A stretch of 64,000 nucleotides of DNA, from contig NC_090291.1 of NCBI RefSeq assembly GCF_037392515.1, forward strand, positions 40,655,501 through 40,719,500, written 5' to 3'. Of this stretch, positions 5,458-52,626 are shown piece after piece. Source of the stretch: Haliotis asinina (lineage: Eukaryota; Mollusca; Gastropoda; Lepetellida; Haliotidae). A program made the translations under genes and the position numbers. Numbering within the stretch: the stretch's first letter is position 1; every line of letters starts with the position of its first letter. The notes under the pieces were generated by a model, which had not been told where the DNA came from, made no database searches, and saw only the letters and a program-made list of their open reading frames with translations.

Positions 5458-5763
5458 ATGTCTAATTATGGTGATATTGCTTTCCTGATTTGGGGGATTG
5501 TGAAGCTTGTCCACTGTGACAGTTGTTTTGACGTGGCTACTGTAATACAGCGTGACAAGTACATGGAACACCAGGCGTTTAGGAAGTTCTGGAGTCCGTC
5601 TTTGTATACTTGTGCCTCAGAATGTCTCATGTCCTCAGGATGTCTATCCTTTGGATTTGACGAGAAAACGCGCACCTGCCTTCTCAACGATAAGGACAAT
5701 GCCAATGGAAACGTTGTTGAGAGAACGGGATTCCTCTTTAGTGACATTCTTCACTGGCCAAAG
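5458..5763 (+). CDS. paralog 1 coding exon 1: signal peptide + PAN/apple
   Basis: 102 codons from MSNYGDIAFLIWGIVKLVHC to ...ILHWPK, then donor AAG^GTTTGT. The ATG was chosen because it begins a hydrophobic leader ending VHC-DSC and matches the start in paralog 2. Five cysteines and the SFGFDEKTRTCLLND stretch are typical of PAN_1. About 80% identical to the paralog 2 exon. Confidence 0.85.
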
Positions 5764-8700: not shown

Positions 8701-11700
8701 AATTATTTGATGACCATTGTGGCAGTAACGACGTTCACTTGTACTTGTACTAACAGACAGAAATCTGACCTTTCTGTTAATGTTATAATGGACTGAATAT
8801 TAATACAGACGAACTGAGGAATAATGCTGATGCATAGAATTATTATTCAAAAAGTCCTCATGTTTTCAGAAATGAGCGGGCCAAATTGATAATGCCCCCA
8901 AATTGGAAGACTACGGGCCGTTATCATGCCCGGTGCTAGGTAACGTCATAAGCGAATTATCAATTATAAAGGATTAATTTTTACGGGAGATTCGTTCGAT
9001 GAAGAGCGAGCTCTCGCGGGACATACGTGACGTCAAAGCAGACACCAGGAAGCTGAACGCATCGGTGAGTGAAATTCAGGATGACATAGAAAGCATAAAA
9101 TCTCAACAGAACAGCTTACGTGCTGAGATGGATGCGATGAATGACCGTTTATCGTCAGTAGAATATAATGACAATCTTTGTGAGAAACTTCAACTTCAAC
9201 TTCAGATATTTGTGACATTCAAAATAATCTACAACGAATCGAACAGCATAATCGTCGTAATAACGCTCTCATCCATGGTCTGAGCGAACTACCAGATGAA
9301 CTTAATTGCGATATTAAAGAACTTGTGTATGAATTCTAAATAAACATTCCACGGATTACAGTTTTAACCAGGACAGCATCTTAGAAGCCTATAGAATAGG
9401 GAGTTTTTCGAAACGCCCTAGACCACTCCTGGTGAAGTTTAAAGTTACAAGTGAAAAAATAATTCCTCTGTCAAAGAAAAATCTCCGATCTCAAGCAGCA
9501 GAATAAACATGGTTATTATAAGAATGGCAAGTTGATCGTGGTCGACCGTCGCCCGGCTGGGGGTACACAGGATGAAAGGAACAACGAGTCTACACATGAG
9601 GAGGACACGCCTTCCAGGGGGGATTCACCCCTACGCATCACCTGACAGCAACTCCACGCGCGCATAGGGGTGGGGCCGACCCATGACACTACGCCCGGAT
9701 GTAAACACTGTGATAAACTGTCTTTTTTGGAATATAGCAGGATTTCAGAATAAAAGTGGTGATAATAATTTCTTAGTATTTTTCAAACATTATAATATCA
9801 TTGGTCTCTCTGAAACCTGGACTGTAGGAGTTGATTACTCATCAATATTTCATGATTATAAGTGTTATTGTGTTGACGCTGTGAAAACTTCTACTACAGG
9901 CAGACCTTCTGGTGGTGTTGTGCTTCTAATAAGATCCAATTTAATCAAATATGTGAAATTTGATAAAATCATTGATAATGCTGCTTTTTTACTACTAGAT
10001 AAGTCCATGTTTGGCTTTGATAAAGATGTCCTTTCGTCAACTGTGTATCCGGTTCATCATGGTATGACCATAAACCATTCTCTTGCGGATTGTTATTTTA
10101 TTTTGAAACCTTGCTCGCCCTATGGTGTGATTTAGAAGACCCAAATGTTATCATAGGTGGTGACTTTAATGCAAGAACTGGCGAAGAACCCGACAGTGTT
10201 GAAGATAGTATCGCTGAAATCATTGGAGATGAACACTTTAGTATAGAGTCTGATATAATAAATACAACACGTAAATCATGTGACAAAATTGTTAATGAAT
10301 CAGGCAAGAAACTTCTAAGATGGTGTGCTACTTTAAACCTGTTCATTATGAATGGCCGTTGTGGACAGGATGCCCATGGCGATTTTACAGTTACAAGTCA
10401 TTCTGGAAGGAGTGTCATTGACTATGTTATTGCCTCACCGCTTGTACTCAGAAACTGTAAACAATTCTGCATTCCCTCTTCAGAGTGTGACCACTTACCG
10501 TTATCTTGTCAATTTCAACCACGTGATATCCATGTAGAAAACATGCATGATGAAGAAGCAGGCACAGCACGTGCTAATCAATATCGTTACGTCTGGGATG
10601 ATAGCAAAGCTGAACTCTTTCGTGAAAATTTATTGTCAGAAAAAATTGTAAAAAAGATGACTGATTGTTTAGATCTCATGTTTGATAATGTTTTTGATGC
10701 TGTTGAACTATTTCCTACAGCGATTTGTGTAGCTGGTATATGTATGGAACGTAAAGTTTCTTCTGGTTTTACCACTTCTAAACCATGGTACGATTCTGAA
10801 TGTAGCTATTATCGCACAGAGAGGGAAAGGCTTTTACGTGTCTTCAGAAGATGTAGAGATGATGAGTCCCTTAGAGATTATTTAAATATGAAAAATAAGT
10901 TTACGTCTGTGACGAGAAATGAGCAACGCTCCTACCACGATAAAGTCGTACAGGCTCTGAATGATAGCCTCAATAATAGCAAGGAATTTTGCAATGTTTT
11001 GAAAAAGGTTTTCTAATCCGATCCGTATTAGCCACTCCGGGAATGGTATGATTATTTTTCTGGTATTTTCATGGCCTCCAATTCTAATAATATAAATGAA
11101 TTTTTTTATGCATCTGAGATTTGTGACGATAATGCTACATATATTCTGGATTCCCCTATTTCAGTTGATGAAGTGTTAAAAGCAATTGATGCCCTTAAAA
11201 ATTCTAAATCGGCTGGTGATGATAAAGTAATTGCAGAGTTCTTCAAGCACTCGCGTGATATGGTGGCCCCTATAATAACTACTCTCTTTAAGATTCTGTT
11301 TGATAAGGGTATTTTTCCTGAAAACTGGTCTGTCGGTATAATTGTTCCCATACATAAGAAGGGTGATGTAAATGATGTCTCCAATTATAGAGATATCACT
11401 GTTCTCAGTGTTTTTAGTAAGTTATACATTTCAATCATTAAGGAAAGGCTGCAATTTTGGTCTGATGCTTTTGGTAACATTTCTGAGTCGCAAGCTGGAT
11501 TTAGAACTGGGTACTCCACTATTGACAATGTTTTCATTTTATATAATATTGCAGAAAGAATTCTTTCCAAAAAACAAAAATTGTATGCTATTTTCATAGA
11601 TTTTTCCAAGGCTTTTGATTTGATTAATAGGTCAAAGTTATGGTTGATTTTGAATAAAAAGGGTCTGTCTCCTAAAATGGCGAGGTCAATTAAGTCCATT

Positions 11701-14700
11701 TATTATAGCGTCAAATCTTGTGTCAAAGCTAATAATATGTTTACAGAAAGGTTTCAGTGTAACATTGGTGTACGGTCGACCACGATAATATTGAATCCGT
11801 GTGTTATCCAGGCATCCAAATGCACCCCGAGTTGACAGAGTTATTTCTCCTACTCTTTGCTGATGATGTTGTCCTCTTCTCTGACACAATATATGGTTTA
11901 CAAAAGCGTATTAATGTTTTGAAACAGCACTGTATTGATTATGACCTTACTATAAATTTAGATGAATCTTAGTATTTAGACACGGTGGCAAGCTTTCAAA
12001 AAAAAAGAAAAATGGTTTCTTGGAGATATCCGTATTGATTGTGTATCTTCTTACAAGTATTTGGGTATTCAATTTTCGCAAACATTAGCTTGGTATAAAG
12101 ATTTTGATAACTCAGTTTTACAAGCTAAAAAGGCTTTGTTTATTATACTCAGATCTATTTCCAAATTGCAGTCTTCGAATAGTCATTTCTTCTTTAAAAT
12201 CTTTGATTCTAAAGTTATACCTATTCTGCTTTATGGCGCTGAGGTATGGGGTCTAGACTGATCTTACTTCTCCCATCGAGACTGTCCACACTTTGGCTTG
12301 TAAAAAAGTATTAGGTGTTAAAACTACCACCTCTAACCAGGTTGCTAGGGGGGAATGTGGAAGATTTCCTGTATATAACTATGCGTATAAGCGCTGTATT
12401 AAATTTTGGCGCAAGTTGTTGAAAATGACATCATCACGTTTTCCTAGAAAATGTTATAATTTAATGTTATTGGAATGTTATTGAAGCTGTTGGTGCCTCC
12501 CATCGTAAACTTACGCACAAAAGAAAGTACACACATGGTGCTTCTGGATTATTTTCCTATAAACACACAAAAAGTACCTAAAACAAAAAAGAACAAAAGG
12601 AATAAAAAGAAAAAAAAAAATCAAATTCAATAACTCAGCTTACATTGTTTTCATTGTGGCGTGCTATTCACGTGTTAATGGAATCAATGGAATCATGTTT
12701 GGGAATGGGTCTACAAAATTATGATCCTAAAGGCTTTGAAACTCGCAGAACTTGAATATAGTCAGTGTGTTTTCAGACCCATTGATTCGTTGTCTTTGAA
12801 ATACGTTTCAGTAAGCACAAATAGAGTAAGTAAGCACAAACATGGTAAACAACATAAGTCAAAGTCAACTGCTCAGAAAGCAAGCTTGAGGAGCCCAAAC
12901 AGCCACTTAATTAGTCGTCGTTTGCTTGCTCCTAGCCACCGGCGTGTCCAACAAGACCAGAAATGTTCTGCTTGCTCGTCCATCGTGTATTGTTGTACCG
13001 TTGACATATCTTGCTTTAGGATGCCAGATTTAGTGCTGATCATATAAAATTACTCTGAATTTACCAAATACCCTCGGCCTTGACATGATCTTGTGAACGT
13101 CAGGAAAGCGTTGATGTTGGGTTACAGAGTTAAGTGTGTGTAATGCTATGGGTGGGAACCACTGTGACTGCCAGGATACCGCTGTAAATAGTACACGGAA
13201 GAGTAAGTCGAGAGTGTCTGAGTGAGTTTAGTTTTACGACGCGTTTAGCAATATATGAAGACGATAGGAGGAAGGGAACACCAGATTATGGGCTTCAAAC
13301 ACTGTTCCGAACGATATGGGGAATCGAACCAAGGCATATGAGTGTCGTGATTGGTAAGCCACTATCTTGGCAAGGCGCTGCATTAGGAGTGGGGAGGTCT
13401 CGATTAATTCGCAATAGCAAATTCATTCAGGCTCTACCATTTATGTTTAACCATACAAATGGACGCATGGATCATCTCAAGCGTTCACCCATTGACTTAG
13501 TACATCTGTCTTGCATGTTTCTTTGCACCATTACAACATACTCGTGCCATTAACACGTTGCTCATGTTCCTACTAGTCCCACCATCTTTATTCATCTGTC
13601 ACATTCACTCAGTATATGTGTTGAGAACCAGTGACGAACCGGGTTAGAAACTGTCTTGCTAGACACGACGGATATGGATCTAATTGCAACGATATGACGT
13701 GACAGATTAAGGTTGGACCAAGCACGATGTGAGGCGTTGATCATGCTATCAGTCACTGGTTTATCGGCTCCAGATTTTGTAGAGAACATCTCTGACTATG
13801 GCGGACCCGTGAAGATGCGGGTTAGAATTGGTCTTCAGTAACCACTGCTTGTCGTAAGGGGCGAGTAACGCGATCGAGCGTTTAACCTCGCTGATTTGGT
13901 TGACATTGTCATTGTATCCCAGTTGTGTAGGCTGATGCTTATGCTGTTAATCACGTGATTGTCTGGTCGTGACTCGATTACTTACAGACCGATGTCATGT
14001 AACTGGAATTTTTGCTGAGTAGGCAACAAGGAAACAAAACATTTTAAGTATAGAGGAGACACAGTGGTACTAAAGCAATATAACAAAGAAACTTAAACAA
14101 TTTAACAAATCATCTGGGTTCTACTGAGCCCGCAGGGTATCGTTATTAGCAAAAACAGGATACTTATCTTATAAAGGGATCCAATGAAACGTATTAGCTA
14201 ATTAAGACTAAAGAATAAATGAACCATTACATATTCATTGAACGTGCAATTTATTGTTCCTGGTACTTTCTTATCACCAGGGAGCGTTGGTGACTCAGTC
14301 GACTACAGCGTCGCGATTCGCTGGACGCAGGTGTTTCTCGTGAGTACGCCGGAAGCCAACAGGCATTTTAATCCCGCGTCGTCCTACTCGAGTTCCTACA
14401 AACCCGTACTTTGGATTCTCCAAAGTGGGAATCGTTCAAGACCTGCATAAGTTGGGTTTTCCTACCACATTAAGCTTGTACATAGTGAAGTAACTGCTCT
14501 ACTGTTCAAGGTGGTTCACGTTAAGTCATGCACTTGCTCATAACATTGCAGGGGTTCAAAATTATCACCGTCGGACGCCAGGGACAAGTCAGTTTTCATT
14601 TCGGGCAATCAATTAATGTTATCTTACTTGTTCGTGGGCTAGATAATTTCTGCTTACGGTTTCACTTTCACTTAAATATACTTGTGTTTCATTTCATGTC

Positions 14701-17700
14701 TGCTCAAGATGTAGCTATTAAATTTCACAATGATAATAAAGTAGAGTTATCTTTCTTTGCTATTTATAAATAGTCCACTAAACATTAACATCAAATACCA
14801 TGTTGATTTATTCTTTCATATTTTCATTATCGTGATTATGTCATAAAAATCAAGGCAAGGGGAAAGTTACTCAGGACAAGTTACTTTCTTAAAGTCACGT
14901 GACCTTTGGCAAGTGGCTTTTGAAAATGTGTTTTGAACCCCACGTCATTTGGTTTAGATTTGATTAAGAGTTACAGGTGTTAGATCTGAGATGGAGCTGG
15001 GGTTGGAGTTAGTGATGAAAATGAAGACATTGGTAAAACATGGATTAAGGATGATTTGAATCAAACAGCAAGCATCAAATTGCCACTTCACTACCACTGA
15101 CTTATGCCTCCGAAACATGGCCGAAAGGAAGATGTGGGGCCGCCTCCTGTGTTTCATGACTGTTCAGATCTACATCTACGCAGAAGCGGCAGAAGAGTGA
15201 CATAAAGACTCCATCCTCTACCCACCGTCACCACACTCACACACGCACACACACGCACACACGCACACACACAGACGCCCAACCAATTGGGGGTAGCCTA
15301 ATGGTTAAAGCGTTCGCTAGTCACGCCTGAAGACCAGAGTTCAGCTGCCCTAATGGGTATATTGCGTAAAGTCCATTTCTGATGACCACCGATATCGCCG
15401 AGACCCGAGTAGAGACCATGTAACCATGCCCACAAACTAGTGATCTATGTTAAAGGTGTGTCGAGGATAGGTCATTTGTTCTTTATCGACTAGGATCCTG
15501 ATCAAGGGGGCCAATTTCAGATATGGGCTCAGAGGAACTTTGAGGGATGTCTTGACTCAGCTGCGAGTCAGAATTTAGCGGTATTTACAATGAGTATATT
15601 GGAAATAACCACCTTCATACAAATAATTAGAAAAATCTGTTGCTATGTCAACGGTAATTTGTATAGTTTATATGATTACGGTCCGCATTGTCGATTGCTT
15701 ATCATCGTACCCAAACTGCATGGATCATACCTCAAATCATCTACCAGTGGATTATCTTGTTCACACACGATCCAACAACTGCTGTCATATTGAATGAAAG
15801 ATCACTGAGAGCTTTAACACATACACACACACGCACGCACCACACGCAGGCATGCCTACACACATGTGCGCTTATTCGCACATGATAACGCACGCACTCA
15901 CGCACGCACATAAACAACGCATACATACATTTACAGACACACACCTTGACTCAGACTTTAAAACTGAATTAGTTATGGCTGCGTCTAGAATTTTCTGTTA
16001 CATGTGTGATTTCTATGGCGGTTGCCGCACGCATGCATGTACGCACGTTTTAGTTGGTTTTGAATAGTGCTGTTAATGGAATAATGAAATCGCACCAGCG
16101 AACAAATGCATTCCGCAAAAGACTTGTCAATCAGTAGCTCAAATGTTTAGGTTTTACTTGAAAAAAGGGAATTGTTGCATTTTTGTCGTCCCCTTCAATC
16201 AACCTATTTGGCAATATTTCTCGCCACCTCTTTACTGCCTGTGAACGAGAACCCTTCTTTAATCTCGTGTTTTCTTACTTACACGAGCGCACAGACCAGC
16301 ACAAAATTCATCTCGAACGGTTTCTTCACATTTTCTTCACATTGTCCGTTATATTTTGTTCCAGTCCTTCGCAGGGCCATGTTCTCCGATGGCGTGTCAA
16401 GGGACCGACCGATGCCAAGTAGATCGGCTTCATCGTGCCACTTGTGTTCCAGGTAAACGGACTGCATCCTTCTAGGTTTCACCTTTTATTGTTAACAGTC
16501 AATAACTGAAAACAGCTGGTTATTTTGACCATACCTTCCCCCAAAAGAAACGCATATGCGACATTGATCTTTTAATTATGTGTCAACGTTAGAGTTCATT
16601 GTTATTATTTCACCATTACAAATGAATACATTTGCCCTAAAAGCATCATCGGAAACGCCAATGCACATTTATGTTCTGAAGTAATAACTTGCGTAGAAAT
16701 GTCATGGAGAAAACGTGCACGTGCGGGTTTCAGGAATCGAGAGCAGGACATTGTCTATATAAGACCGTTTTGCTATGAGACGGTCATTGGAATTTTTTGC
16801 TAAATGAAAGAATATCGTTATGCGCGACTCTATCCCGTAAATTAAAACAATGTCATTGAACATCTGGAGTACTATCAATCTACTGTTGCATCGCACCTCA
16901 ATATTCACCAGCTTCAGTCGTTTATGGGACGGATTTGACAGAACTAGTGCTACGCGCGATCGGCCTCGAATTGCTACTGCAGCGCAAAATAGGTACATCT
17001 GGGTACTTCATTTGCGGAACCGGACCGTCACTAGTGCAGTTGCAAGTGAAAACCATTTACGAGAAGCTTGACTTGGAGTCAGAAGCCGTATTTTGGCCCT
17101 GTGCTGCGACGAATACATCTACGTCGACGGGCGCAATGACGTTCAGTTCTGGAAACTACTGGCGACGTGTATGGCTCTGACAAATAATGCTTTCTGCTTC
17201 AGTCACGTGACGGAAGACTATCTTGTATCAACGTCAAAATGGACCTTCCGCCCAGAATTCTGTCGCCCAGATTTATCGATTTGGTATTGGAAGTGTCATG
17301 ATGTGGGGAATCACATCCCAAAATTTGTGAGCCTTCAGGGCAATTTAACTGCTGTGCGGTGCAGAGACGAAAACGTAAGGATTCACATAATTCCAATCAC
17401 AGACCGCTGGTGAAGCAAGATAACGACAGGCCTCACACAGCACATGCCACCATTCAGTATTTTCAGAATGAGAACGTTACAGAACTTCCACGATAATCCA
17501 AACCTCAACCTCATCAAGTATTTGTAGGATGACCTCGACGCGTACGTAAATATCACCGTTAGACTGACTGTTGCTGGGGTGTCAAATGCTGATTTAGTCC
17601 ATGTGTTTGTGGTGGCCACAACAGATACTGAAAACAAGGCCCAACTGGGAACGGACACTTTCACTTATTGTTCCTTTTATAAGCAAAACATGAATTACAG

Positions 17701-20671
17701 GCATTTGATCTTTTATACTGAGTACTGTGGCTGCATCTGATCCAGAATTACATGTGTTTTCTCACTTTAAAGGTGAAGCATATTGAATTCGTGAAAATGC
17801 ATTAATGCATCTTTTTTGTGACAGTACATGTCCAAATAAGAGTAATACTATTGTTTAACGCCACATTCAGCTATAGCCAGTGGTTAACTGCTTTAAATTA
17901 TAAGAAGGAGCGTCACATACTGTATGCGTTTGAGACAGCAATCCGAAATATATTTAAACGTTTGTTGAGATGTTGCAATTACCGATATTAGAATGATTGA
18001 GATCGTTTGTATCGATCTGCGGAAGTAGAATACCAAGACATTCATCAGCCGGCAGACATCCTGGCCAGCCGATCCCATTCAATGCCTCGTCCGAAAAACG
18101 TGAATTGCTAAAACTTAATTCTAATCCGGATCTTTACGGGTTCTATAATAGTAGTAGCTTTACTTCTTCTATTGAAAAATATAGTGATTAAATCAACTCG
18201 CATACCTTGCCAACAGAGCCCTGAACCAACACTATGAACAAATAACAAATACATTATTGACGTACAGACGCATCTGTGAAGACAAAACTATTGATCTTTT
18301 GATCTACTCACGCTTCCATGACAACCGAACAACCATGACCACGACTTTTAAATCATCAAATGCTTCCACCCTGGCTGACCCATATTTATACCGGAATATA
18401 TTATTTTATCTTTGAGAGTTCAAAGGGTGTGGTCAGCCCCCAGAGGTGACGGGCGCCAGCAAAACGTACGAGGGCCATGACCAGGGTGCTGTAACAACCT
18501 ACACCTGCAAACAGGACTTCACAGCCTGTCATGACAAAGTTACCAGTATCTGCCAATCCTCTGGACACTGGGAGAATATGACGACTGGCTTGTGTACTCG
18601 GAATATTTGGCACAGTCCGGTAAGCGTAAGCTTATATATTCAAAGAATGTATCATTGTCTACTGACTATAAATATTATTATCAGAAATAATTGATGTAAG
18701 TTTTGGATCGTGTTTAGGAGTAATCTAAAATATATTCTTGAATACAAACGGAAATGGAAAGGGAAATTATAGGTCGCTTGCGTGTCTGAAAACCAGATTA
18801 ATTCGTTGTTTACGTATTTTTGAAGCTATAGGTGTAAAGCTAAAGAATACAACCACGTTTCTGATTGCAATCACACGCACGAAAGCAAATCTTTCATGAA
18901 CTTCTATTTTGTCTAAATATTCATAGTTAAATAAAGCAATTACAGAACACATTACCACCATCAAACTCTTTTGATAAACAGACGAGTTTGTTTGTCGCCT
19001 GCAGACCTTGGGCAGTCTCTATCCACTACCTTGTGGACCATCAAGCAAGTTCACGGCGACTGTCATCGGAACACCGATATATGCCGCAAGGTAATATTCA
19101 TGCATGAGATTACAGTACATAGAATAATACCGTTCATGATATTTTAATGATATGTCCTCCTTATGTAAGAAATGTAACACATTCTCTGAGCATGTGAACA
19201 TTTCATGGGTGCAGGTGTAGTTCTGGGTGTGGGATGGGTGAGCTTATAGGTGGGCTGGTTCTGGTTTGGAAAAGGGGCATTGGAGATTGTGGCGGAAAAT
19301 GAGTGAAGGTTGATATGTAAGAAAGCACACACGCGTACACGTACACACACGTACACGTACACGTACACGTACACAAACACATACACACACACGCTCACAC
19401 GTGAGCTGGTCATCATGAGGGCCATGCATTGAATATAAGAGGTTGTAATGTGTGGTTGGGATGTGTATGATTGTGGTGTATGGTTGTGATGTGTGTTATT
19501 ATGATGTGTGTGGTTGCAGTGTGTGGTTGTGATGTGTGTGATTGTGGTGTGTAGTTGTGATGTCTGAGGTTATGATGTGTGTGGTTGTGATGTGTGAAGT
19601 TGTGACGTGTGTGGTTGTGGTGTCTGATTGTGATGTGGTGTTGTGGTGTGTGATTGTGATGTGGTGTTAAGGTGTGTTATTGTGGTGTGTGGTTGTGATG
19701 TGTTGTTGTGTGTGGTTGTGACTTTGGTGTGGTTGTGATGTGGTATGTGGTTGTGATGTGTGGTTGTGGTGTGTGAGTGTGATCTGATGTGATTGTGATG
19801 TGTGATTGTGATGTGTGGTTGTGATGTGTGTATATAGAGCTGTCACGGCATCCCTAATTCTTGCCATGTATGATTTCAGCCAGCACAGATGGAATATCTG
19901 GCTTTGGAAAGACACCGACGTACTTTTGATATCAGAGTTCAGATTTCAATTCGATACCTACGTAAATACAACAGTAATGAACAGTCGAATTGGAGGTTCT
20001 TGGTTAGTACCGACCCGTACTCCAAGTTTACCTATGTTGGTAGGACAAGAAACAGAGGTCAGGATAACACTACACAGTGGAATATACAGGGTACGTGTCA
20101 GTCTGACTCCGTTTATATTCAAGTTGTGAGATTTGTAATGTAGGTATTTCTTGGCCACAACCATCTGCGTTTTTCGGGATTACGTTGCATGGGGCTGGAC
20201 ACTACCATACCTTTAACATGACCTGCATTGTATGTTTTGAAGATACGTACAGAGAGTAATCCAGCATGGCCTGGAACGAGTACTTTGTGGTGAGGCTCAC
20301 ACGGGAATTGGAGCATGAACTGGTATAATAGGAATGATTTCCTGCAATAAAACACTTGAAAGCTTTGGGATCATGATTTTGTGACAGGACGTTCAGCATG
20401 GCTGAAATACGTCTCTCATATGGTGCTGACAAACCTTTAGGATAGCATCACTATAATACAGTTCTCTTTGTTGGGTCGGTATATGATCTCTGGTTGGAAA
20501 TGATAAAGTAAAAAAATTATGTGTAATGATGACTCTTTATTTTACTTCCAGCTGCAAATCGATGGCCAGAACATGATCAACTACACCGAGAAAGTGCCAG
20601 GAGCGGGGCCTGTATCCATCTCTGTAGAGGGTCATGTGTCACTTCGAATGATAGAAATCGTATTGTATTAA
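5458..20671 (+). CDS. secreted PAN-sushi-galectin protein, paralog 1 (six coding exons)
   Basis: Coding exons: 5458-5763, 16365-16452, 18417-18619, 19005-19090, 19889-20090 and 20552-20671. They join to 1005 nt (334 aa) with intron phases 0, 1, 0, 2, 0 and GT..AG borders. Residues 1-20 are a signal peptide. About 22-102 form a PAN/apple domain (CASEC...GC...C spacing). About 103-132 form a four-Cys EGF-like module. About 135-192 form a sushi/CCP domain (GCGQPPEV, YTC, SICQSSGHW, GLC). About 205-334 align with galectins: RWNIWLWKDTDVLL matches the galectin RFxINLxxxxDIAL strand, and VMNSRIGGSW aligns without gaps with VCNSKDGGAW of galectin-1. In galectin-1 numbering Arg48, Asn61, Trp68 and Arg73 are kept, while His44, Asn46 and Glu71 are not. 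N-glycosylation sequons are NMT, NTT and NYT. A 5' non-coding exon is likely, because an acceptor (CATTCCAG) sits 4 bases before ATG. A secreted lectin or recognition role is inferred; the exact ligand is unknown. A tandem paralog with the same structure lies at 43242-52626. Confidence 0.82.
6037..6174 (-). mobile_element. SINE-B copy, tail-truncated, in intron 1 of paralog 1
   Basis: GTTTTACACCGC, CACGGCGGGGGACACCAGAAAT, ACACATTGTACCCATGTGG, GGAATCGAACC and GGCTACTCAACTGCCCC in tail-to-head order. The GAGT tail is decayed. Confidence 0.75.
7070..8440 (+). mobile_element. Tc1-like DNA transposon, decayed, with inserted segment
   Basis: Transposase pieces recur in order across frames. Near 7090-7200 is a helix-turn-helix N terminus. 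At 7306-7465 GISTQTVRQRLRRF and QQRLQWARQHVRW are classic Tc1 sequence. At 7885-8060 come ADDRVRDHRRRGERHADNC, the ETDRFGGG region and NLTGERYHEGVL. At 8140-8420 are the NNVDMLLWPAKSP-like stretch, the PIEHVWNEMKGRL-like end of the DDE core and the C terminus. Stops and frameshifts make it non-functional. About 390 bp (roughly 7475-7870) unrelated to transposase splits the DDE domain. It lies in intron 1 of paralog 1. Confidence 0.75.
7475..7870. other. unidentified segment inserted in the Tc1-like transposase
   Basis: Transposase similarity stops after the CCTCTCACGAATAAGTTC region and resumes near CGCTTCACAGAGCTGATGAC. The AT-rich stretch between has no recognised motif, and I could not see clear terminal repeats. 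It may be a short non-autonomous insertion. Confidence 0.4.
8999..9540 (+). pseudogene. LINE ORF1 remnant (coiled coil + RRM-like)
   Basis: Residues 1-60 (from ELSRDIRDVKADTRKLNASV) form a heptad-rich coiled coil. Farther on, in shifted frames, come RRNNALIHGLSELPDE and AYRIG..KRPRPLLVKFKV, which are typical of the RRM/C-terminal half of LINE ORF1 proteins. The reading frame shifts near 9180 and stops interrupt it afterwards. ORF1p would bind the element RNA. Confidence 0.7.
9683..12484 (+). pseudogene. LINE ORF2 remnant (EEP endonuclease + reverse transcriptase)
   Basis: The endonuclease shows WNIAGFQNKSG, GLSETW (catalytic Glu) and, after a frameshift near 10110, GGDFNARTG and SECDHLPL. 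The reverse transcriptase at about 11130-11990 shows SAGDDKVIAEFFKH, PIHKKGDVNDVSNYRDIT, the FIDFSKAFD catalytic motif and, in another frame, LFADDVVLFSDT. The QG..SP strand that should lie between GVR and FADD is missing, so there is an internal deletion near 11775-11830. The C-terminal region (YGAEVWG, KKVLGVK) follows at 12225-12480. Confidence 0.85.
12641..13212. other. intronic stretch, no gene recognised
   Basis: A 108-codon frame at 12721-13047 is rich in Ser/Lys/His and matches nothing I know. It has no splice or promoter support and lies inside intron 1 of paralog 1. Confidence 0.35.
13213..13378 (-). mobile_element. SINE-B copy (full, diverged)
   Basis: Tail GAGTGAGTTTAGTTTTACGA, CACCAG, GGGCTTCAAACACTGTTCC, GGGGAATCGAACC and the TAAGCCACTATCTTGGC head region in order. 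Confidence 0.7.
13804..14025 (+). mobile_element. SINE-A copy (full, diverged)
   Basis: Head GACCCGTGAAGATGCGGGTT, CTTCAGTAACCACTGCTTGTC, GATCGAGCGTTTAACCTCGC, TTGGTTGACATTGTC, TTGTCTGGTCGTGACTCGA and the TAACTGGAATTTTTGCTGAG tail region. Confidence 0.75.
14026..15236. other. intronic stretch, no gene recognised
   Basis: Short frames only (for example 14238-14450, 70 codons). None shows a domain, and none is flanked by acceptor and donor sites in a compatible phase with the surrounding gene. Confidence 0.35.
15237..15275. repeat. (AC)n microsatellite
   Basis: Repeating CACACACGCACACACACG-type dinucleotide tract. Confidence 0.85.
15287..15400 (+). mobile_element. SINE-B copy (5' half)
   Basis: GGGGGTAGCCTAATGGTTAAAG (A box), CGTTCGCTAGTCACGCCTGAAG and GTCCATTTCTGATG. 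Box B is mutated to GAGTTCAGCTG, and the tail is missing. Confidence 0.75.
15815..15945. repeat. CA/CG-rich low-complexity tract
   Basis: Irregular ACACACACGCACGCACC, CACGCACTCACGCACGCACA and ACAGACACACACC runs. The frames across it are compositional only. Confidence 0.7.
16365..16452 (+). CDS. paralog 1 coding exon 2: four-Cys EGF-like module
   Basis: An 88-bp exon between TTTTGTTCCAG and CCAG^GTAAAC, phase 0 in and phase 1 out. It encodes SFAGPCSPMACQGTDRCQVD followed by RLHRATCVP. Cys spacing is C-x4-C-x5-C-x9-C, like half an EGF module. Same length and phase as 47770-47857. Confidence 0.82.
16860..17670 (+). mobile_element. Tc1-like DNA transposon remnant (intron 2 of paralog 1)
   Basis: The frame from 16850 gives SFSRLWDGFDRTSATRDRPR and TAAQNRYIWVLHLRNRTVTS, the helix-turn-helix and linker of Tc1-type transposase. 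Next come the diverged DDE core (17093-17413), ending GNLTAVRCRDENVRIHIIPI, then NPNLNLIKYL-DDLD and C-terminal scraps to about 17660. Frameshifts and stops make it dead. I did not find convincing terminal inverted repeats. Confidence 0.75.
18417..18619 (+). CDS. paralog 1 coding exon 3: sushi/CCP domain
   Basis: A 203-bp exon after ATCTTTGAG, before CCG^GTAAGC, phase 1 in and phase 0 out. Cys framework GCGQPP, YTC, FTAC, SIC, GLC with the sushi Trp in SSGHW; the FTAC cysteine is extra to the usual four. An NMT sequon is present. About 82% identical to the paralog 2 exon. Confidence 0.87.
19005..19090 (+). CDS. paralog 1 coding exon 4: galectin N-terminal strands
   Basis: An 86-bp exon after CGCCTGCAG, before GCAAG^GTAATA, phase 0 in and phase 2 out. 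It encodes LPCGPSSKFTATVIGTPIYA, the first beta strands of the galectin fold. Confidence 0.8.
19322..19402. repeat. CA/ACGT microsatellite in intron 4
   Basis: CACACGTACACGTACACGTA-type run between exons 4 and 5 of paralog 1. Confidence 0.8.
19437..19835. repeat. GT-rich minisatellite (TGTGGTTGTGATG) in intron 4
   Basis: About 400 bp of degenerate 11-13 bp units such as TGTGGTTGTGATGTG. The array ends about 50 bp before galectin exon 5. A smaller array of the same unit is at 22615-22700. Confidence 0.85.
19889..20090 (+). CDS. paralog 1 coding exon 5: galectin sugar-site exon
   Basis: A 202-bp exon. By comparison with paralog 2 the acceptor is CCAGCACAG^ATGG, giving ...YAA-R-WNIWLWK; an upstream TTTCAG would add four residues. 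It ends GIYR before GTACGT. It carries the strands that form the galectin binding groove: SEFRFQF, VMNSRIGGSW and VGQETEVRITLHSG. His44, Asn46 and Glu71 equivalents are Ile, Glu and Pro. Confidence 0.83.
20552..20671 (+). CDS. paralog 1 coding exon 6: galectin C-terminal strands and stop
   Basis: A 120-bp exon after TTTACTTCCAG. It encodes LQIDGQNMINYTEKVPGAG, then PVSISVEGHVSLRMIEIVLY and TAA. This matches galectin F/G strands of the KVxVDGxHLxEYxHR..xxISVxGDVxLxSV type. Confidence 0.83.
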   Translation: MQIDGQNMINYTEKVPGAGPVSISVEGHVSLRMIEIVLY

Positions 20672-37400: not shown

Positions 37401-37404
37401 CAAT

Positions 37405-41186: not shown

Positions 41187-41267
41187 AATAGTTTTTATTG
41201 TGATTAAGAAGTTTTTTTCAGCACATCTTAGCACAAGTAAATATGAAAACAACGGGGAATGTGACTC

Positions 41268-41520: not shown

Positions 41521-41570
41521 CCAATCAGAATAAAAAAATTTCTAACGTTTGCTGGAAACCATTGCCATTT

Positions 41571-43241: not shown

Positions 43242-43550
43242 ATGGCTTCGAACCTTGGTCGAATTGTTTTCGTTCTTGTGTTGATCGTAAAGCTTGTCCA
43301 CTGTGACAGCTGTTTTGACGGGGCTACTACAGTGCAGCACGATAAGTACATGGAACACCAGGTATTCAGGAAGTTGAGAAGTTCGTCTTTGTATACTTGT
43401 GCTTCGGAATGTCTCCAGTCCTCAAGATGTCTTTCCTTTGGATTCGACCAGAAAAGGCGCAACTGTTTTCTCAACGATAAGGACAGTTTCAATGGGAACG
43501 TTGTTGAGAGAACGGGATTCCTCTTTAGTGACATCCTTCACTGGCCAAGG
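43242..43550 (+). CDS. paralog 2 coding exon 1: signal peptide + PAN/apple
   Basis: A 309-bp exon after CCTTTCAG GGTG, ending HWPR before GTTTGT. Same cysteine frame as 5458-5763 (SC, YTC, SEC, RC, NC). Substitutions cluster in the loops rather than around cysteines. Confidence 0.85.
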
Positions 43551-46500: not shown

Positions 46501-49500
46501 CCTACACGCCCTTCAAACAACCGCCATTTGTCTTGCAATTAGTAGTGTTATTTCACGACTCTGTTCTTTGTGCAAAACTGGACTGTATATGCTCTGAGCA
46601 CACATCAGATGTATGAAGAAAGTGATTTCTCGGGCGGATCTTTGGAGCAGCGTAAACAGAGATAATGTTTGATATTTAAGTCTCTCTTCCTGTACAAATG
46701 CAACGCTGTCTTTGTTTCAAGTAGAACTTAATGAAAAGTGCTTAGCGTGAACTTGAGAGGTCATTAGAATCAATGGAAGCAATTTGGTAGAAATATTATT
46801 GAACTACAAACAATACAATGCAACACAAGCGCACGTAATATCACAAGGCACACGCACATTCTCTCCAAAAAAATACTTACAAACATCATGCATGCACGCA
46901 CATGCATACTTTACGTATATTTTAACATGAGCTGTAGCATCGTACAAACACGTACAAAATCGTTGAAATGGAATACGGTTTATAACTAATGTCATGAGAT
47001 CACATTTGAAACAAATCATGTTCACGAGACAGGGACAATAAAATAGGCATGAACTGATATATGCCAGTTATTAATAGTGTCCATTTAAATATATTCAAAT
47101 CAACAGAACAATGTGCTTGAAGTATGCTGATATTCAGAATTTACACAAACATACTGGTCGTTATTTATTTAACGGTCCCCCCAGCAATATTTCAGAGGCA
47201 AGATTTTCGAAGCTCTCTTAGCGCTAAGATAGTCTTAAGTCCCATATATCAACATTAACATACGACTGTCTTAGCGCTAAGAGAGCTTCAACCATCTAGG
47301 CCAAGGTATACTGGTGCGCTGGATAAGGCTGCAAGAGTTGTATGTTCCCCAGGGAGTTGAGATTGAAAATACGATCTGCCGTTGTGATGAACATCCAGTG
47401 ATCGAGGGAAAAAAACGCTCTTGAGCAGTTTAACTAACTGGATATCGGCGCTATACAAATATCTAGTTATGTTGTTGTAAATCTTCTGAAGTAACAACAT
47501 TTTCACTCAAGTCTGACTTTCTTGTGATTTTAAGCCAGTACTCGGTATTTTGTACAAACATGAATGATACTGTACGATCAAGCAGTATCCTTCAAATTAA
47601 GAATTCTCATGTTTGCAACAAATTAATCTGATCTGTCCTAATCTCATTAAAACCAATGCTTAGTGCTTGCTAGTGCCGGAGTATGAGCTGTGACATTTGA
47701 ATATACTAAAATATGCTATTACTGCAAGATCAAAATAGAATTATACCCAACTGTCGTTTCTATTTCTAGTCTCTCTCTGGTCCATGTTCTGTGGTGGTGT
47801 GCCCGGGATCATTCCGATGTCAGGTAGATCGACTTGGTCGTGCAACCTGCGTTCCAGGTAACCCTCTCCATTTCATATTAGACGCATTAGTGATTATTTA
47901 CATCATTACTAAAGCATCTTAGTTTGTTGATAAGAGGTAACACAGACTGGATGAATGTTAATATTGTTAATATTTGGTAATGTGAGTAGCGGTAGTAGTA
48001 AATGACAGCAACAGTAGCAGTTGTGGTTGTGACGCCTCATTCGCTACCGGCCAGCAAATAGATAAGCCTGAACCTGATAATCTAGTAATTATTAGTTTCA
48101 GCAGCGATCCACGCCTTGGTATCCGTAGCACTAGCAGTAGCTGGAATAGTATTTAAAAGTAATCAAAAGCGGCTAAATGGTGACGACCACTAAATGGTCC
48201 AGGCTGGACAAGATAATAACATCTGTATCGGGGCAAGCTTCAGCATTTGTAGATTAATGTCGGTAGTCCTACAGATTAACTGAACTCGTTTACAAGTAGT
48301 TATTGTTATTTACATGCCCTTGACAGCATGAAAGGAGAGTCATGAACTATTGATGCATCTATGACAGTGAAACTGAGTTACTGCAGATGCATCTATGGCT
48401 GTGAAACTGAGTTACTGCAGATGCATCTATGTCAGGGAAACTAAAATACTGTCGATGGACCTATGACATGGAAACTGAGTTACTACAGATGCAGCTATGA
48501 CGGGGAAACTAAGACACTACAGGGCGAGTGAGTTTAGTTTTACGCCGCAGTTAGTAATATTTCAGCTATATGGCAGCGGCAGTCTGTAAATAATCGAGTC
48601 TGGACCAGACATTCCACTGATCAACAGCATGAGAATCGATCTATGCAAATGCGTCAACCACCCGATCCCGTTAGTCGCCTCTTACGACAAGCATAATCGC
48701 CTTTAATGGCAAGCATGGGTTGCTGAAGGCCCATGCTACCCTGGACCTTCACGGGTCAGATACTACAGATGCACCTATGACTGGAAAACTGAGATACTAC
48801 AAATGCACCTATAACAAGGAAACTGCGTTACTACAGATGCACCTATGACAAGGAAACTGCGTTACTAACGATGCACTTATGACAGGGAAACAAAGTGACT
48901 GCTGATACGTCTAGATCAGAGAAACGAAGAGCCGTGCATTGGCAAGAAGACTATTTTCCCTCGTCATATGTGGCAAATATTTCAGAATTCCTTGGGTGTC
49001 GTCAGCCTCCAGAGGTGATAGACGCCAGCAAGACGTACGAGGGTCATTACCAGGGTGCTGTAACAACCTACACCTGCAAACAGGACTTCACAGCCTGTCA
49101 TGACAAAGTTACAAGCATCTGCCAATCCTCTGGACAGTGGGAGAAAATGACGGCCGGATTGTGTAGTCAGAATGTTTGGCACAATCCGGTAGGTCAAATC
49201 TTTCAGTAATTATGTATTTTCTCCTCGTAAATGAAATTGTACGTCTGTACAAATATACACTCTAAATACATTATATGTAAGTGGTACATAATGTATGTTC
49301 ACAATCTATAAGACATGTGATACAAATGAATTCTTTCTTGTGAAATATTTTGGTGTAATTCCATTGTTTTTGTCTTAGGCTCTTGACGTAAAGCATCCAC
49401 TTCCGTGTCGGCCATCAAGAGCGTTCAGAGCAACAGTCATTGGAACACCAAGCCAAGCTACGAGGTAATCTTGATCGGTGTATTAAGAAAAGGGTACAAT

Positions 49501-52500
49501 AAAATCAAATGCAACACAGAAAACACCTACGGGACCAGATGTCTTCGGAAAACCAACAAAGACTGGCCATGATTATTAAATATAGAACTTCCGTCTTGAC
49601 CATTCTCAGATTCCATTTAGTATAAAAGTTTAAACTGTGAGAACTGTCCACTGCAAATAGGACCACTGAAAATGAAAGTGTTTTCACAAGCGCTCAATAT
49701 ACCCTGCTCCACTGATAGGACCGTTCATACAATTTGACTAAACGAGTGAAGGTTTGCTCAGAAGCGCTTTCGCTGAATCTAGCTCACAGCAGATCTTAAC
49801 GTATGATTCCGACTATTATCATTAGCATTTGTTAATGACACCAGGTGTTGGCAAACAGGCGAGCGTAGCCTGTCCCACCGGTGTCACCCGTGCCTAGTCA
49901 AGTCGATTGTTCTCATAAAACAGTCGTGGCAACATCATAATGTGTAATTCAAAATAGTGAGTGAGTTTAGTTTTACGCCGCACTCATCAATGACCATCAG
50001 TCGGCATGATCATCAATCTGCGCAATTGGAAACCGATGACACGTTTTAAATAAGTCAGCTAGCCTGACGATCCGATCCCGTTAGTCGCCTCTTGCAACAA
50101 GCATAGTCGCCTTTTACGGCAAGCATGGCTTGCTGAAGGCCTATTCTATCCCGGACCTTCACGGGCCTTTTCAAAACAGAGAACTGCACCATACACAGTT
50201 TGTTTCATTGATATGACACATTTTAAGTGATTAAAAACTTGACAGAGGCAATGGATGCTGTTACCCTGAACAAACATGTTTTTTCCGGAAATATCAAAGC
50301 CGACAAGAAGGTGTTTTTCTCCCAGAAACATACAAGTTTATGTCGAAACGTAGGGTATGTTTTCAGACACTACTGGAGTGGATATTAGAAAAATTATTCT
50401 AAAAAAGGTGTTAATTCTTGCAAGACAGGCCGTTTTAACACCCAGCGTCATTCATCCTTGAGAAACAGGCAGTTGAAACCATTTCCCATGATTCATTCTA
50501 AACACTCCACGTTATAAGCGATCAATCAAACGCGGAAACTCGGGGCAGCCGTCCTTGCAAAAACAGACCAGTTTATTACCAAGGGTCCCTAAGAGAGACT
50601 CTGTCGGAACACCGGTCACTCAATTATTCTGGACACTCTGTAATCCGTCATTCATTCATGCAAGACACGGAGTGGATGAGTGAGTGAGTTTAGTGTAACG
50701 CCGCACTCAGTAATATTCCAGCTATATGGCAGCGACAATCCAGTAATCAACAGCATGAGCATCGGTCTGCGCCATTGGGACCCAATGACGTGTCAACGAG
50801 CCTGACCACCCGATCCGCCTGTCGCCTCTTATGGCAAGCATGGGTAGCTGAAGGCCTATTCTACCCCGGATAGACCTTCACGCGTCCAAGACACCGAGCA
50901 AACTCCAGGGTCGCAAAACAACCTCGGTGGAAAGCAGCACTGATTACTTTTTCTGGGCACTTTGTAGTCGTAAACCTAGTTGAAATAAATCTTTAGCTTA
51001 ATGATAGGAATATGAAATGGACTTTAGGCTGCACTGATTCTGATGTCCACTGCTCTGTCAGTCAGAATGAAGAGATTTTGGAGAATGTTTGATACTGTGT
51101 TCCAAAGGATTCTCCTCGACGATCTGGAATGTGGTTTAGGTCTTTGGCGTGAAAATTCGTGCCTTTGCAACTTTCTGTTATATGGATATGTATTTGCGTG
51201 ATTTGATGAAGCCAAGCAAGGTGTATGCGTGTGTGTGTATGTGTGCGTGTGCGTGTGCGTGTGCGTGTGCGTGTGTGTGTTTACGCGCGCGTCTGTGTGT
51301 GTGTTAGAGAGTGTAAGTGAAAGTGTGACATTCTCTCAACTCTGATAAATGTCAATTGCAGATGGAATATATGGCTGTGGAAAGACAATGATGTACCTTT
51401 CTTGTCAGAGTTCCGTTTTGTCTATCACACGAGTAGACATGAAACCGTCGTGAACTCTCGATTTAATGGACTGTGGGATGAACATGTAATTGCTAGTGTC
51501 CCTCTACCCATGACCGTAGGACAAGAAACAGAGATCCAGATAACCTTACAGAAAGGAGTATACGGGGTAAGTGGCGAGGGCACCGGGAACGTGGGAACTG
51601 CTACATGGTCATCTCTTTGCCTGTTTAAAATGCAGCCTTTGCCTTTGTTGTAAGTGTACAGAGTTTCGCATCACTTTAAAGAGCTCCAGTGGTCAGAATG
51701 AGCTTCTGTGGTCAGCTAAATCAACTGGAGTAGAGCTTTACAGAGATGTCTGTTGTCGGAAGGTTAAATCTGTTATTACGTTTGACCGCAGGCTCATATA
51801 AGACAACATGAACATACACGTATATAATATCCATGAACGTACTCCAGTATTTGTAAGACTTTGTTCCATTTCATATCTCTCAGAAAGGTATTTACAGTTT
51901 TCTTAGTGAGTTAGTAAGAATCGTTTTACGCCGGTTTTAGCGATATGCCAGAAATGTCACGGCGGGGGACACCAGAAATGGGCTTCATACATTGTACTGA
52001 CATGGGGAATCGAACCAGTGTCTTCGGAGGAGCGAGCGAATGATTTATCGGCTAGGCTACCCGGACGCCGAGTCTGCATGATCTAACAGATTTTGACGAG
52101 TATTTAAAGTAAGCGTGTGTAAGTGGCATATAATATTGACGGAAGTTGGCTTGAGTGAATGAGTCGATTTTACAAACGAATGGATACAAAAATATCACAA
52201 AGGACACCAGAAGTAGGCATCACATGTGCCTACATTCGAGCCTGGGCCAGACTTGAATCAGAGGACAACACACCGATGTGCCATATCTTAACCAGTTGTG
52301 TTCGTATATTATCTGAGTTTTAAGGGACGGTGGGATAGTCGAGTGGTTGCGGCGTTCGAAGACTTTTGGGTTCAATTCCCCACTTGAAGCCCTTGTGTTA
52401 CTCAGAGTGATATTGTGGAATATTGCTAGATACTCAAAGTAAAATCGCTATCGAACGTTAGCCCCAACGAAATTATCCTTACAAATGTTTTGGTCTGTTT

Positions 52501-52626
52501 CTTCTCTTCCAGCTGGAAATCGATGGCGCGAGTATGTACAATCTCACTGAAAGACTGCCGGGAGGGGAACCTGTATCTATCTCCATAGAGGGAGCTGTCG
52601 CAGTTCGACTGATGGCAATCCGTTAA
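43242..52626 (+). CDS. secreted PAN-sushi-galectin protein, paralog 2 (six coding exons)
   Basis: Coding exons: 43242-43550, 47770-47857, 48986-49188, 49379-49464, 51362-51566 and 52513-52626. They join to 1005 nt (334 aa) with intron phases 0, 1, 0, 2, 0, the same total length and phases as paralog 1. Start MASNLGRIVFVLVLIVKLVH is a signal peptide; an in-frame ATG 36 bases upstream lies before the TTTCAG acceptor and is less likely. Domains: PAN/apple (about 23-103), four-Cys EGF-like module (104-133), sushi/CCP (about 136-193) and galectin (about 206-334). In galectin-1 numbering Arg48, His52, Asn61 and Trp68 are present, while His44, Asn46, Glu71 and Arg73 are replaced. One NLT sequon. Transcribed in the same direction as paralog 1, so a tandem duplication. 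Role as a secreted lectin-like recognition protein is inferred from domains alone. Confidence 0.82.
43627..43675. repeat. (GGGCA)n tract just after exon 1 of paralog 2
   Basis: Nine or so GGGCA/AGGCA units start about 75 bp after the exon 1 donor. Runs of GGG spaced by two bases could form a G-quadruplex in the transcript; this is inference. Confidence 0.8.
44575..44765 (+). mobile_element. Tc1-like transposase fragment (intron 1 of paralog 2)
   Basis: FQGNLTVESNFDPHHSDIHA at 44578, then GPGLTLQHDNARFNT at 44644, are the NGNLTxxxYRDEIL...PH and GPxxxFQQDNARPHT segments. ARVEIMDL-TAP-TW follows in another frame (for VEVMDWPAxSPDLN). Only the middle of the DDE domain remains. Confidence 0.65.
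44860..44922 (+). mobile_element. SINE 3' tail fragment
   Basis: CATATAGCTGGAATATTGCT, GAGTGCGGCGTCAAACTATA and CTCACTCACTCATTC. Only the tail common to SINE-A and SINE-B is left, so the family is open. Confidence 0.7.
45305..45358 (+). mobile_element. SINE 3' tail fragment
   Basis: CGCGATATTGCTGGAATATT, GCTGAAAAAAACCCACTAAC and TCACTCACTCAG. Confidence 0.65.
45466..45665 (+). mobile_element. SINE-A copy, head-truncated
   Basis: GACTATGCTTGTCGTAAGAG, GATCGAATGGTCAGCTCGCT, TCGGTTCCCAATTGCGCAGA, GATTGTCCGGTCCAGACGCG, CCACCGCCATATAGCTGGAA and TATTGCTGAGTGCGGCG. Confidence 0.85.
45692..45800 (+). mobile_element. SINE-B copy, box B region deleted
   Basis: GGCCAAGAAGCCTAGTGGCTAAAG (A box), CGTCACGTCGAATACG, then directly TTAGCCCATTTCTGGTGTCC, CCGCCGTGATACTG and AATATTGCTAAACCC. 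The (CATA) tract follows the tail. Confidence 0.75.
45823..45990. repeat. (CATA)n tetranucleotide microsatellite
   Basis: About 23 uninterrupted CATA units (45893-45990) after a CACACA/CAGACA lead-in. Met-Tyr-Val-Cys or His-Thr-Tyr-Ile frames across it are artefacts. Confidence 0.92.
45991..47195. other. intronic stretch, no gene recognised
   Basis: Part of intron 1 of paralog 2; short frames only. Confidence 0.35.
47200..47295. mobile_element. palindromic MITE-like element
   Basis: CGAAGCTCTCTTAGCGCTAA + GATAGTCTTAAG on the left is mirrored by CATACGACTGTCTTAGCGCT + AAGAGAGCTTC on the right. Arms about 35 bp, loop about 22 bp. Confidence 0.65.
47770..47857 (+). CDS. paralog 2 coding exon 2: four-Cys EGF-like module
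   Basis: An 88-bp exon after TATTTCTAG, before CCAG^GTAACC. SLSGPCSVVVCPGSFRCQVD then RLGRATCVP. Same Cys spacing as paralog 1. Confidence 0.82.
48352..48900. repeat. 34-bp minisatellite (array 2), split by a SINE
   Basis: Units such as GATGCATCTATGACAGTGAA + ACTGAGTTACTGCA at 48352, 48386 and 48420 (period 34), continuing after the SINE to about 48900. It lies in intron 2 of paralog 2 and ends about 85 bp before exon 3. Same unit type as 27065-27460. Confidence 0.85.
48523..48757 (-). mobile_element. SINE-A, full length, with 11-bp target-site duplication
   Basis: Complete 235-bp copy from the GAGTGAGTTTAG tail to CCTTCACGGGTC head, sitting inside the 34-bp minisatellite. Flanks AGACACTACAG (48512-48522) and AGATACTACAG (48758-48768) are a duplicated target with one change. 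This is the best guide to the true ends of the family. Confidence 0.9.
48986..49188 (+). CDS. paralog 2 coding exon 3: sushi/CCP domain
   Basis: A 203-bp exon after ATATTTCAG, before CCG^GTAGGT. GCRQPPEV, YTC, FTAC, SICQSSGQW and GLC. The acceptor in phase 1 joins exon 2 as ...VP-E-FLGC. Confidence 0.87.
49379..49464 (+). CDS. paralog 2 coding exon 4: galectin N-terminal strands
   Basis: An 86-bp exon after TTTGTCTTAG, before CGAG^GTAATC. ALDVKHPLPCRPSRAFRATV then IGTPSQAT. Confidence 0.8.
49957..50167 (-). mobile_element. SINE-A copy (intron 4 of paralog 2)
   Basis: GTGAGTGAGTTTAGTTTTAC, GCCGCACTCATCAATGACC, CATCAATCTGCGCAATTGG, CCCGTTAGTCGCCTCTTGC and GGACCTTCACGGGCC. The SINE middle block is shortened. 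Confidence 0.85.
50673..50886 (-). mobile_element. SINE-A copy with 12-bp target-site duplication (intron 4 of paralog 2)
   Basis: GAGTGAGTGAGTTTAGTGTA tail to AGACCTTCACGCGTC head. Flanks CAAGACACGGAG (50661-50672) and CAAGACACCGAG (50887-50898) differ by one base. Confidence 0.88.
51210..51312. repeat. (GT/GTGC)n tract in intron 4 of paralog 2
   Basis: GTGTGCGTGTGCGTGTGCGT runs ending about 50 bp before galectin exon 5. Paralog 1 has a GT-rich array at the same place. Confidence 0.85.
51362..51566 (+). CDS. paralog 2 coding exon 5: galectin sugar-site exon
   Basis: A 205-bp exon after AATTGCAG, before GGG^GTAAGT. WNIWLWKDNDVPFLSEFRFV, ETVVNSRFNGLW and MTVGQETEIQITLQKG. One codon longer than in paralog 1; only about 55-60% identical to it. 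Confidence 0.85.
51904..52072 (-). mobile_element. SINE-B copy, full length (intron 5 of paralog 2)
   Basis: TAGTGAGTTAGTAAG tail, GTTTTACGCCGGTTTTAGCG, CACGGCGGGGGACACCAGAA, ATGGGCTTCATACATTGTAC, GGGGAATCGAACC and GGCTAGGCTACCCGGACGCC head. Confidence 0.85.
52155..52260 (-). mobile_element. SINE-B copy, heavily decayed
   Basis: GAGTGAATGAGTCGATTTTAC, AATATCACAAAGGACACCAG, AAGTAGGCATCACATGTGCC and CATTCGAGCCTGGG in tail-to-head order. Confidence 0.6.
52322..52436 (+). mobile_element. SINE-B copy, tail-truncated (intron 5 of paralog 2)
   Basis: GACGGTGGGATAGTCGAGTGG (A box), GGGTTCAATTCCCC (box B), GAAGCCCTTGTG and GTGATATTGTGGAATATTGC. Confidence 0.8.
52513..52626 (+). CDS. paralog 2 coding exon 6: galectin C-terminal strands and stop
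   Basis: A 114-bp exon after CTTCTCTTCCAG. LEIDGASMYNLTERLPGGE then PVSISIEGAVAVRLMAIR and TAA. Two codons shorter than in paralog 1; ATTAAA variants lie just downstream. Confidence 0.83.
   Translation: MEIDGASMYNLTERLPGGEPVSISIEGAVAVRLMAIR

Follow-up and report, generated by a model that had tools for sequence, protein, structure and literature searches.

Two genes of the abalone Haliotis asinina predicted to place a galectin domain behind PAN, four-Cys, and sushi modules, and their gene family

Introduction

What kind of protein would arise when a galectin domain is placed behind a leader-like sequence and a set of extracellular modules? This question is raised by two genes, here called A and B, that lie in the same orientation in a 64,000-nucleotide (nt) stretch of the Haliotis asinina genome (contig NC_090291.1, positions 40,655,501 to 40,719,500 of the forward strand), referred to below as the window. 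The initial annotation had read both genes as encoding, in this order, a signal peptide, a PAN domain, a four-Cys module, a sushi domain, and a galectin domain, and had proposed that they represent a distinct class of secreted lectin. According to the relevant part of a 2023 review, the galectins of deuterostomes and bivalves usually have no classical secretion signal, and the secreted galectins of bilaterians use an unconventional route (PMC10343441). A large gastropod family with leader-like N termini and disulfide-rich modules, if true, would be an exception to signal-less galectins at the scale of a gene family.

Domain architecture of A and B

Genes A and B each consist of six exons on the plus strand that splice to 1005 nt including the stop codon, giving 334 amino acids, with intron phases of 0,1,0,2,0; the models were exact to the base as first proposed. 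All 10 introns of the two genes have GT..AG borders, and the two proteins are 69% identical. Two near copies, C and D, were found on the chromosome of A and B (C12) but beyond the window, with six exons each and the same phases.

Domains were assigned with Pfam (cut-offs of 21.4 bits for PAN_1, 22.1 bits for Gal-bind_lectin, and 20.7 bits for Sushi), with family profiles, and with genome searches. Exon 1 encodes a hydrophobic leader and a PAN/apple domain, a module of the blood-clotting type (A, 5458..5763, 306 nt; B, 43242..43550, 309 nt), and PAN_1 scored 30.8 bits in A and 34.4 bits in B. Exon 2 (A, 16365..16452; B, 47770..47857; 88 nt in each) encodes the four-Cys module, recognized with a family profile. 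Exon 3 (A, 18417..18619; B, 48986..49188; 203 nt in each) corresponds to a sushi/CCP module that has a fifth conserved Cys. The last three exons make up the galectin domain: exon 4 the N-terminal strands (A, 19005..19090; B, 49379..49464; 86 nt in each), exon 5 the core, found by genome search and core alignment (A, 19889..20090, 202 nt; B, 51362..51566, 205 nt), and exon 6 the C-terminal strands and the stop codon (A, 20552..20671, 120 nt; B, 52513..52626, 114 nt). Gal-bind_lectin scored 36.5 bits in A (residues 206 to 330) and 23.8 bits in B (residues 218 to 328). The HMMs PF00024 and PF00337 thus exceeded their cut-offs in both proteins, and the PAN and galectin domains did so in all of A to D.

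The sushi call needed the family. In scans of whole proteins, Pfam Sushi (PF00084) stayed below the cut-off in B (19.4 bits), C (19.3 bits), and D (17.5 bits), and no Sushi match was found in protein A; exon 3 of B scanned alone, however, reached 23.4 bits. Pfam Sushi matched all 11 family exons scanned (E up to 0.1), and a profile of the family sushi exons found complement receptors (CR1), DAF, and factor H. Structure prediction for exon 3 of B by itself gave a pLDDT of 58.5 and was uninformative for sushi. With the family profiles, the prediction of a sushi module for the middle exon is firm.

The four-Cys exon gave no match in Pfam scans of single proteins. A profile of 16 rows, including three from the GON-type relatives described below, found an eggshell membrane protein (4.4e-5), SPARC (7e-4), and follistatin (0.01). 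With the 13 galectin-type rows only, the eggshell protein fell to 0.016 and follistatin to 0.21, and SPARC was absent, so the follistatin label was weakened: the similarity was not significant once the three GON-type rows had been removed. The proposed module is probably follistatin-like, a weaker call than those for the other domains.

A profile of ten family carbohydrate-recognition domains (CRDs), searched against the PDB, found galectins, with galectin-9 at 8e-20, and Pfam matched a galectin domain in all 10 family CRDs scanned. Alignment A5 comprised ten genes out of the 13 that have exons 4 to 6, those other than D, L012, and L013. The CRD is split into a small exon 4, a large core in exon 5, and the remainder in exon 6 (strand limits assigned by eye). 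In the part of PMC10343441 that deals with scallops, galectins have a large S3-F4 exon, with four-CRD galectins as the exception. Exons 4, 5, and 6 fit this mollusc-type three-exon CRD with a large S3-F4 middle exon (strand names assigned by eye), and the limits of the family core exon are those of the classical galectin cores of C8 in the alignment. The galectin identity proposed for residues 205 to 334, checked here by sequence only, was thus borne out, as were the PAN and sushi calls, the order of these domains, and one polypeptide per gene; the architecture is indeed unusual for a galectin.

Exon 4 was located blind to its sequence, by scoring in both gaps AG..GT intervals, taken in pairs, whose borders agree with phases 0 and 2; the top pair scored 76 and the runner-up 20. 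The equal length of 1005 nt had looked like a sign of constraint. We rejected this: from A to B, exon 1 gains 3 nt, exon 5 gains 3 nt, and exon 6 loses 6 nt. The equal totals are a coincidence, because these three differences cancel to zero and the close paralogs C (1008 nt) and D (1011 nt) differ. A pyrimidine tract with a CAG ending 4 nt 5' of the ATG precedes A (ATG at 5458), B (43242), C, and D, and a further noncoding 5' exon, with an intron in the 5' untranslated region, is therefore likely in all four genes. The rest of the window held no further family exon of similar score; the next best match had 13 bits (E of 0.007).

A large, partly tandem gene family

The window is a stretch of C12 in a genome of 1.14 Gb, and a search of this genome with protein B gave 121 exon matches. 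Twenty-three stretches were then modelled, on the galectin strand and with the phases imposed. Exon models were obtained in 21 of them, and the exon order was right in all 21. The full six-exon set was found not only in A to D but also in L011, L012, L013, L020, L045, and L046. Among the 19 stretches outside C8, an upstream sushi model was obtained in 15 and a PAN model in 8; L010 gave a partial sushi match, L014 exons 4 and 5 only, and L025 and L026 no model. The sushi exon of L012 is disrupted after about 44 residues, and this copy is a possible pseudogene.

At least 48 galectin-core exons lie outside the classical galectins of C8, and 4 of these 48 carry stops; the number is a lower bound because the search scores the best candidates only. 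The 48 cores were pooled from 19 of the 31 rows of one genome search (the 12 on C8 being excluded), 10 galectin rows of the protein B search, 37 of the 38 rows of another search, and one extra exon, with the N-terminal modules tested for part of them. The PAN-to-core analysis drew on 80 of the 121 protein B exon matches. It used 38 multi-exon-type matches from a set of 64 PAN-type matches (query start below 60), leaving out 26 that were single-large-exon genes or weaker or broken PAN rows. Of the 38 PAN exons tested, 27 were followed by a galectin core ahead of any further PAN exon of that type; for one of the 27 (C12:38611814), the core carries stops. The recurring six-exon set, the 48 cores, and the 27 PAN exons together place the predicted genes A and B in a large, partly tandem gene family.

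The N-terminal modules (exons 1 to 3, called the chassis below) were compared with the galectin head. Their distances between genes were correlated for exons 1 and 5 (r=0.81, 13 genes, p=1e-4) and for exons 3 and 5 (r=0.80, 21 genes, p=1e-4). With near copies dropped, the correlations were 0.74 (10 genes, exons 1 and 5) and 0.70 (16 genes, exons 3 and 5). As judged from these distances, chassis and head share a history. As a control, nine C8 stretches that contain classical galectins (L001 to L008 and L028) were probed with the exons of A and B; no match had an E below 0.01.

A chassis of this kind also appears with another head. In L041 to L044, the N-terminal module order is akin to that of B by alignment, but PAN, four-Cys, and sushi modules lie in one large exon. 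Three of these relatives (L041, L042, and L043) were scanned with Pfam. A GON domain was matched in L041 (8.5e-32), together with PAN and without a sushi match, and in L043 (1.5e-19), together with sushi and with PAN below the cut-off; the scanned piece of L042 held four sushi domains and PAN and no GON match. From the matches in L041 and L043, the N-terminal module set appears to occur with at least two heads, galectin and GON.

Leader, disulfides, and sugar-contact residues

Hydropathy was examined on the Kyte-Doolittle scale. The best 11-residue means at the N termini of A to D ranged from 2.2 to 3.3. Beyond the N terminus, 19-residue means reached 1.1 to 1.5; the threshold for a membrane helix is usually 1.6.

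Of 19 sushi models, all but that of L023 have the fifth sushi Cys (18 of 19), as do A to D. A Cys was also present in all 16 models of the galectin N-terminal exon, for which the search seeds already held a Cys. We infer that these two conserved Cys residues are paired with each other.

We then compared the positions that we take to be the eight galactoside contacts (H44, N46, R48, V59, N61, W68, E71, and R73 in Gal-1 numbering). Among the 25 family cores, H44 is retained in 14, N46 in 0, R48 in 18, V59 in 21, N61 in 21, W68 in 25, E71 in 13, and R73 in 5. For the eight C8 cores, the numbers are 8, 7, 8, 7, 7, 8, 8, and 3 in the same order. Of the eight contacts, A keeps 5 (with positions 71 and 73 varying with where a two-residue gap is put), B keeps 4, C keeps 4, and D keeps 3; among the paralogs, L020 has the most, with 7. 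Galactoside binding by A and B is doubtful because both lack several canonical sugar contacts, although Trp68 and Arg48 remain in them; the word lectin, in the sense of a galactose binder, is questionable for these two proteins.

Evolutionary rates

Nonsynonymous divergence (dN), synonymous divergence (dS), and their ratio (omega) were compared between the galectin core and exons 1 to 3. In the C-D pair, dN was 0.136 in the core versus 0.038 in exons 1 to 3 (p=1.4e-4), with dS alike in the two parts (0.124 and 0.105). In the A-B pair, dN was higher in the core (p=1.8e-5), and dS was also higher there (p=0.011). Over exons 1 to 3, omega was 0.24 to 0.37 in the six pairs of A to D.

Within the A-B pair, dS differed by exon: it was 0.41 in exon 1 and 0.26 in exon 3 versus 1.00 to 1.11 in exons 2, 4, and 5. 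Exon 6 had a dS of 0.49, and the contrast of exons 1 and 3 with exons 2, 4, and 5, calculated without exon 6, gave a p of 1.3e-4. Gene conversion, or else constraint at synonymous sites, may underlie the low values of exons 1 and 3; the blastn similarity between A and B ends near exon borders.

Discussion

Secreted or leader-bearing multidomain galectins are already known, as GREPs and abalone shell proteins illustrate. GREPs of Biomphalaria glabrata, as portrayed in the pertinent passages of PMC5433772, are plasma proteins with two immunoglobulin superfamily (IgSF) domains and a galectin domain. They belong to the VIgL lectins, a gastropod set that combines IgSF modules with a variety of heads, and like A and B they place extracellular domains before a galectin head. 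In GREPs these are two IgSF domains; in A and B they are the PAN, four-Cys, and sushi modules, and no Ig match was found in A and B by Pfam at E up to 10. The IgSF domains of mollusc VIgL proteins are noted in one passage to be hard for software to detect (PMC9334734), and GREPs and CREPs are described, in the section concerned, as limited to Heterobranchia (PMC8878817). Closer to home, the part of PMC6003135 on the nacre and prismatic shell matrix of Haliotis laevigata reports proteins that start with a signal peptide and are annotated as having chitin-binding, sushi, and galectin domains. The CLC_3878/idb_2768 group and idb_982 resemble A and B in having sushi and galectin domains, theirs with a signal peptide, but add chitin-binding_II and FA58C or fucolectin-type domains.

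Galectins without a leader are described for slugs (PMC4795696) and bivalves (PMC10343441) in the portions of these papers that we cite; a portion of the latter reports that Amphimedon sponge galectins carry a signal peptide, although each is a lone CRD, unlike the multidomain A and B. The classical molluscan galectins on C8 share the CRD family and the core exon borders of A and B; they keep most of H44, N46, R48, N61, W68, and E71, and the chimeric family does not. Hydra nematogalectin is also said to be a composite protein, with galectin joined to GlyXY repeats, unlike the PAN, four-Cys, and sushi modules found here. A full-text literature search, with subscription papers outside it, yielded among the matches listed no description of PAN, sushi, and galectin combined. 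What would be new, as judged from the genome, is that the PAN, four-Cys, sushi, and galectin design has expanded into a family, alongside relatives with a GON head in place of the galectin. Of the proposal of a distinct class of secreted lectin, then, the unusual architecture stands, but the class is not unprecedented, given the GREPs and the H. laevigata sushi-galectin proteins as far as the cited passages describe them.

Our preferred reading, held with moderate confidence, is that A and B are members of a lineage-expanded vetigastropod family of extracellular recognition proteins that combine the chassis with an altered galectin head. Each protein would be an exon-shuffled chimera, in which a leader, PAN, a four-Cys follistatin-like module, and one sushi module were set on a three-exon galectin CRD. 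The leader would take the protein into the endoplasmic reticulum, with release to hemolymph or mucus; the chassis modules would tether it to partner proteins or to a matrix; the galectin head would touch glycans or glycoproteins on target surfaces, which may be foreign or self; and the copies of the family would differ in the target recognized. Immune use would be our first choice, with shell matrix and reproduction as rivals; we infer a changed ligand as well as a function in immune or surface recognition. A wider proposal is put forward tentatively: an unreported vetigastropod set of dozens of partly tandem secreted galectins, with a PAN, four-Cys, and sushi chassis and galectin or GON heads, could be a counterpart of the Biomphalaria VIgL proteins, its galectin head having moved off galactose specificity and diversified per copy for surface recognition. 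A large gastropod family of the kind described would provide an example of a galectin CRD relocated through exon shuffling, and it would give testable non-IgSF candidate recognition proteins in farmed snails.

Several observations weigh against the preferred reading. The models of A and B were read from genomic DNA alone, and the phase agreement of distant paralogs is not independent evidence because the phases were imposed in modelling. Hydropathy alone points to a secretion-signal-like leader in A and B; the top 19-residue mean of the leader of protein A is 1.35, and the most hydrophobic 19-mer of protein D (1.51) lies near residue 317, not at the N terminus. None of the 25 family cores has a complete contact set, versus 3 of the 8 C8 cores. 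In the family as a whole, the eight contact positions vary less than the rest of the core (1.62 versus 2.23 bits), and hypervariable sugar-contact sites are thus unsupported as a family rule. The faster amino acid change of the head is clearest in the C-D pair, where the core omega of 1.10 comes from 25 changes and the ratio of nonsynonymous to synonymous changes does not differ significantly between core and chassis (p=0.15). Because of these values, relaxed constraint fits C-D as well as positive selection does, and positive selection on the galectin head is unsupported. In A-B, omega is alike in exons 1 to 3 (0.33) and in the core (0.35).

Four rival explanations were considered. A and B could be structural proteins of the shell or another extracellular matrix, their sushi and galectin domains binding matrix glycans or glycoproteins in material secreted by the mantle. 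The greenlip abalone shell proteins lend this some weight, but PAN is not named for them in the passages concerned (PMC6003135), A and B have no chitin-binding match in Pfam, and dozens of diverging copies would be more than one structural role needs; we regard this explanation as unlikely. Reproductive recognition proteins of the egg coat, jelly, or sperm, with paralogs diversifying like abalone fertilization proteins, would agree with the faster amino acid change of the C-D head and with the egg-lysin genes of the same genome. Pfam scans of family proteins gave no egg-coat domain match, however, and rapid change also fits immunity or relaxed constraint; we regard this as a poor candidate.

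Two explanations remain. In one, the galectin head would have kept its fold but lost sugar binding; the protein would work through its chassis contacts, and the head would serve as a protein-binding or dimer surface. This would account for the loss of Asn46 in 25 of 25 cores, for Arg73 being kept in 5 of 25, and for the 3 to 5 contacts left in A to D. A single-sequence PDB search is in line with it as well, ranking galectin-13 entries and then galectin-10 entries high, behind galectin-9; galectin-13 and galectin-10 are both atypical binders. Set against this, Trp68 (25 of 25), Arg48 (18 of 25), and Asn61 (21 of 25) are mostly kept and L020 retains 7 of the 8 contacts, so that binding with altered specificity may persist, and a nonbinding head seems rather improbable. 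That unrelated neighboring exons were joined by eye into an artificial gene might be suspected from the long introns (10.6 kb in A). Yet the six exons recur in the same order in A to D and six further stretches (with the sushi exon broken in L012), exons 1 to 3 show coding constraint in the omega values of the six A-D pairs, and the distances of chassis and head correlate; such an artifact is hardly credible.

Other features of the window and the genome

Intron 1 of gene A contains pieces of a LINE-type retrotransposon in the orientation of the gene (9668-11832, plus strand), with an endonuclease match (Exo_endo_phos_2) at 10027-11013 and a reverse transcriptase match (RVT_1) at 11035-11832. 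Between genes A and B, a 102-nt tandem array of seven copies, the middle ones nearly identical, occupies 40311-41222. The window begins with a 57-nt tandem repeat (1-570) in which several frames are open; one plus-strand frame encodes a Pro/Tyr-rich 19-amino-acid repeat, for which no Pfam match was found at E up to 0.01. Elsewhere in the genome, a cluster of egg-lysin-like exons was found at C14:26671878-26918244 (L054), with six Pfam Egg_lysin matches, two of them with stops; such genes suggest a vetigastropod of the abalone kind, probably Haliotis. Sperm lysin is known from abalone, and one of the C14 exons aligns with sperm lysin structures (2.6e-11).

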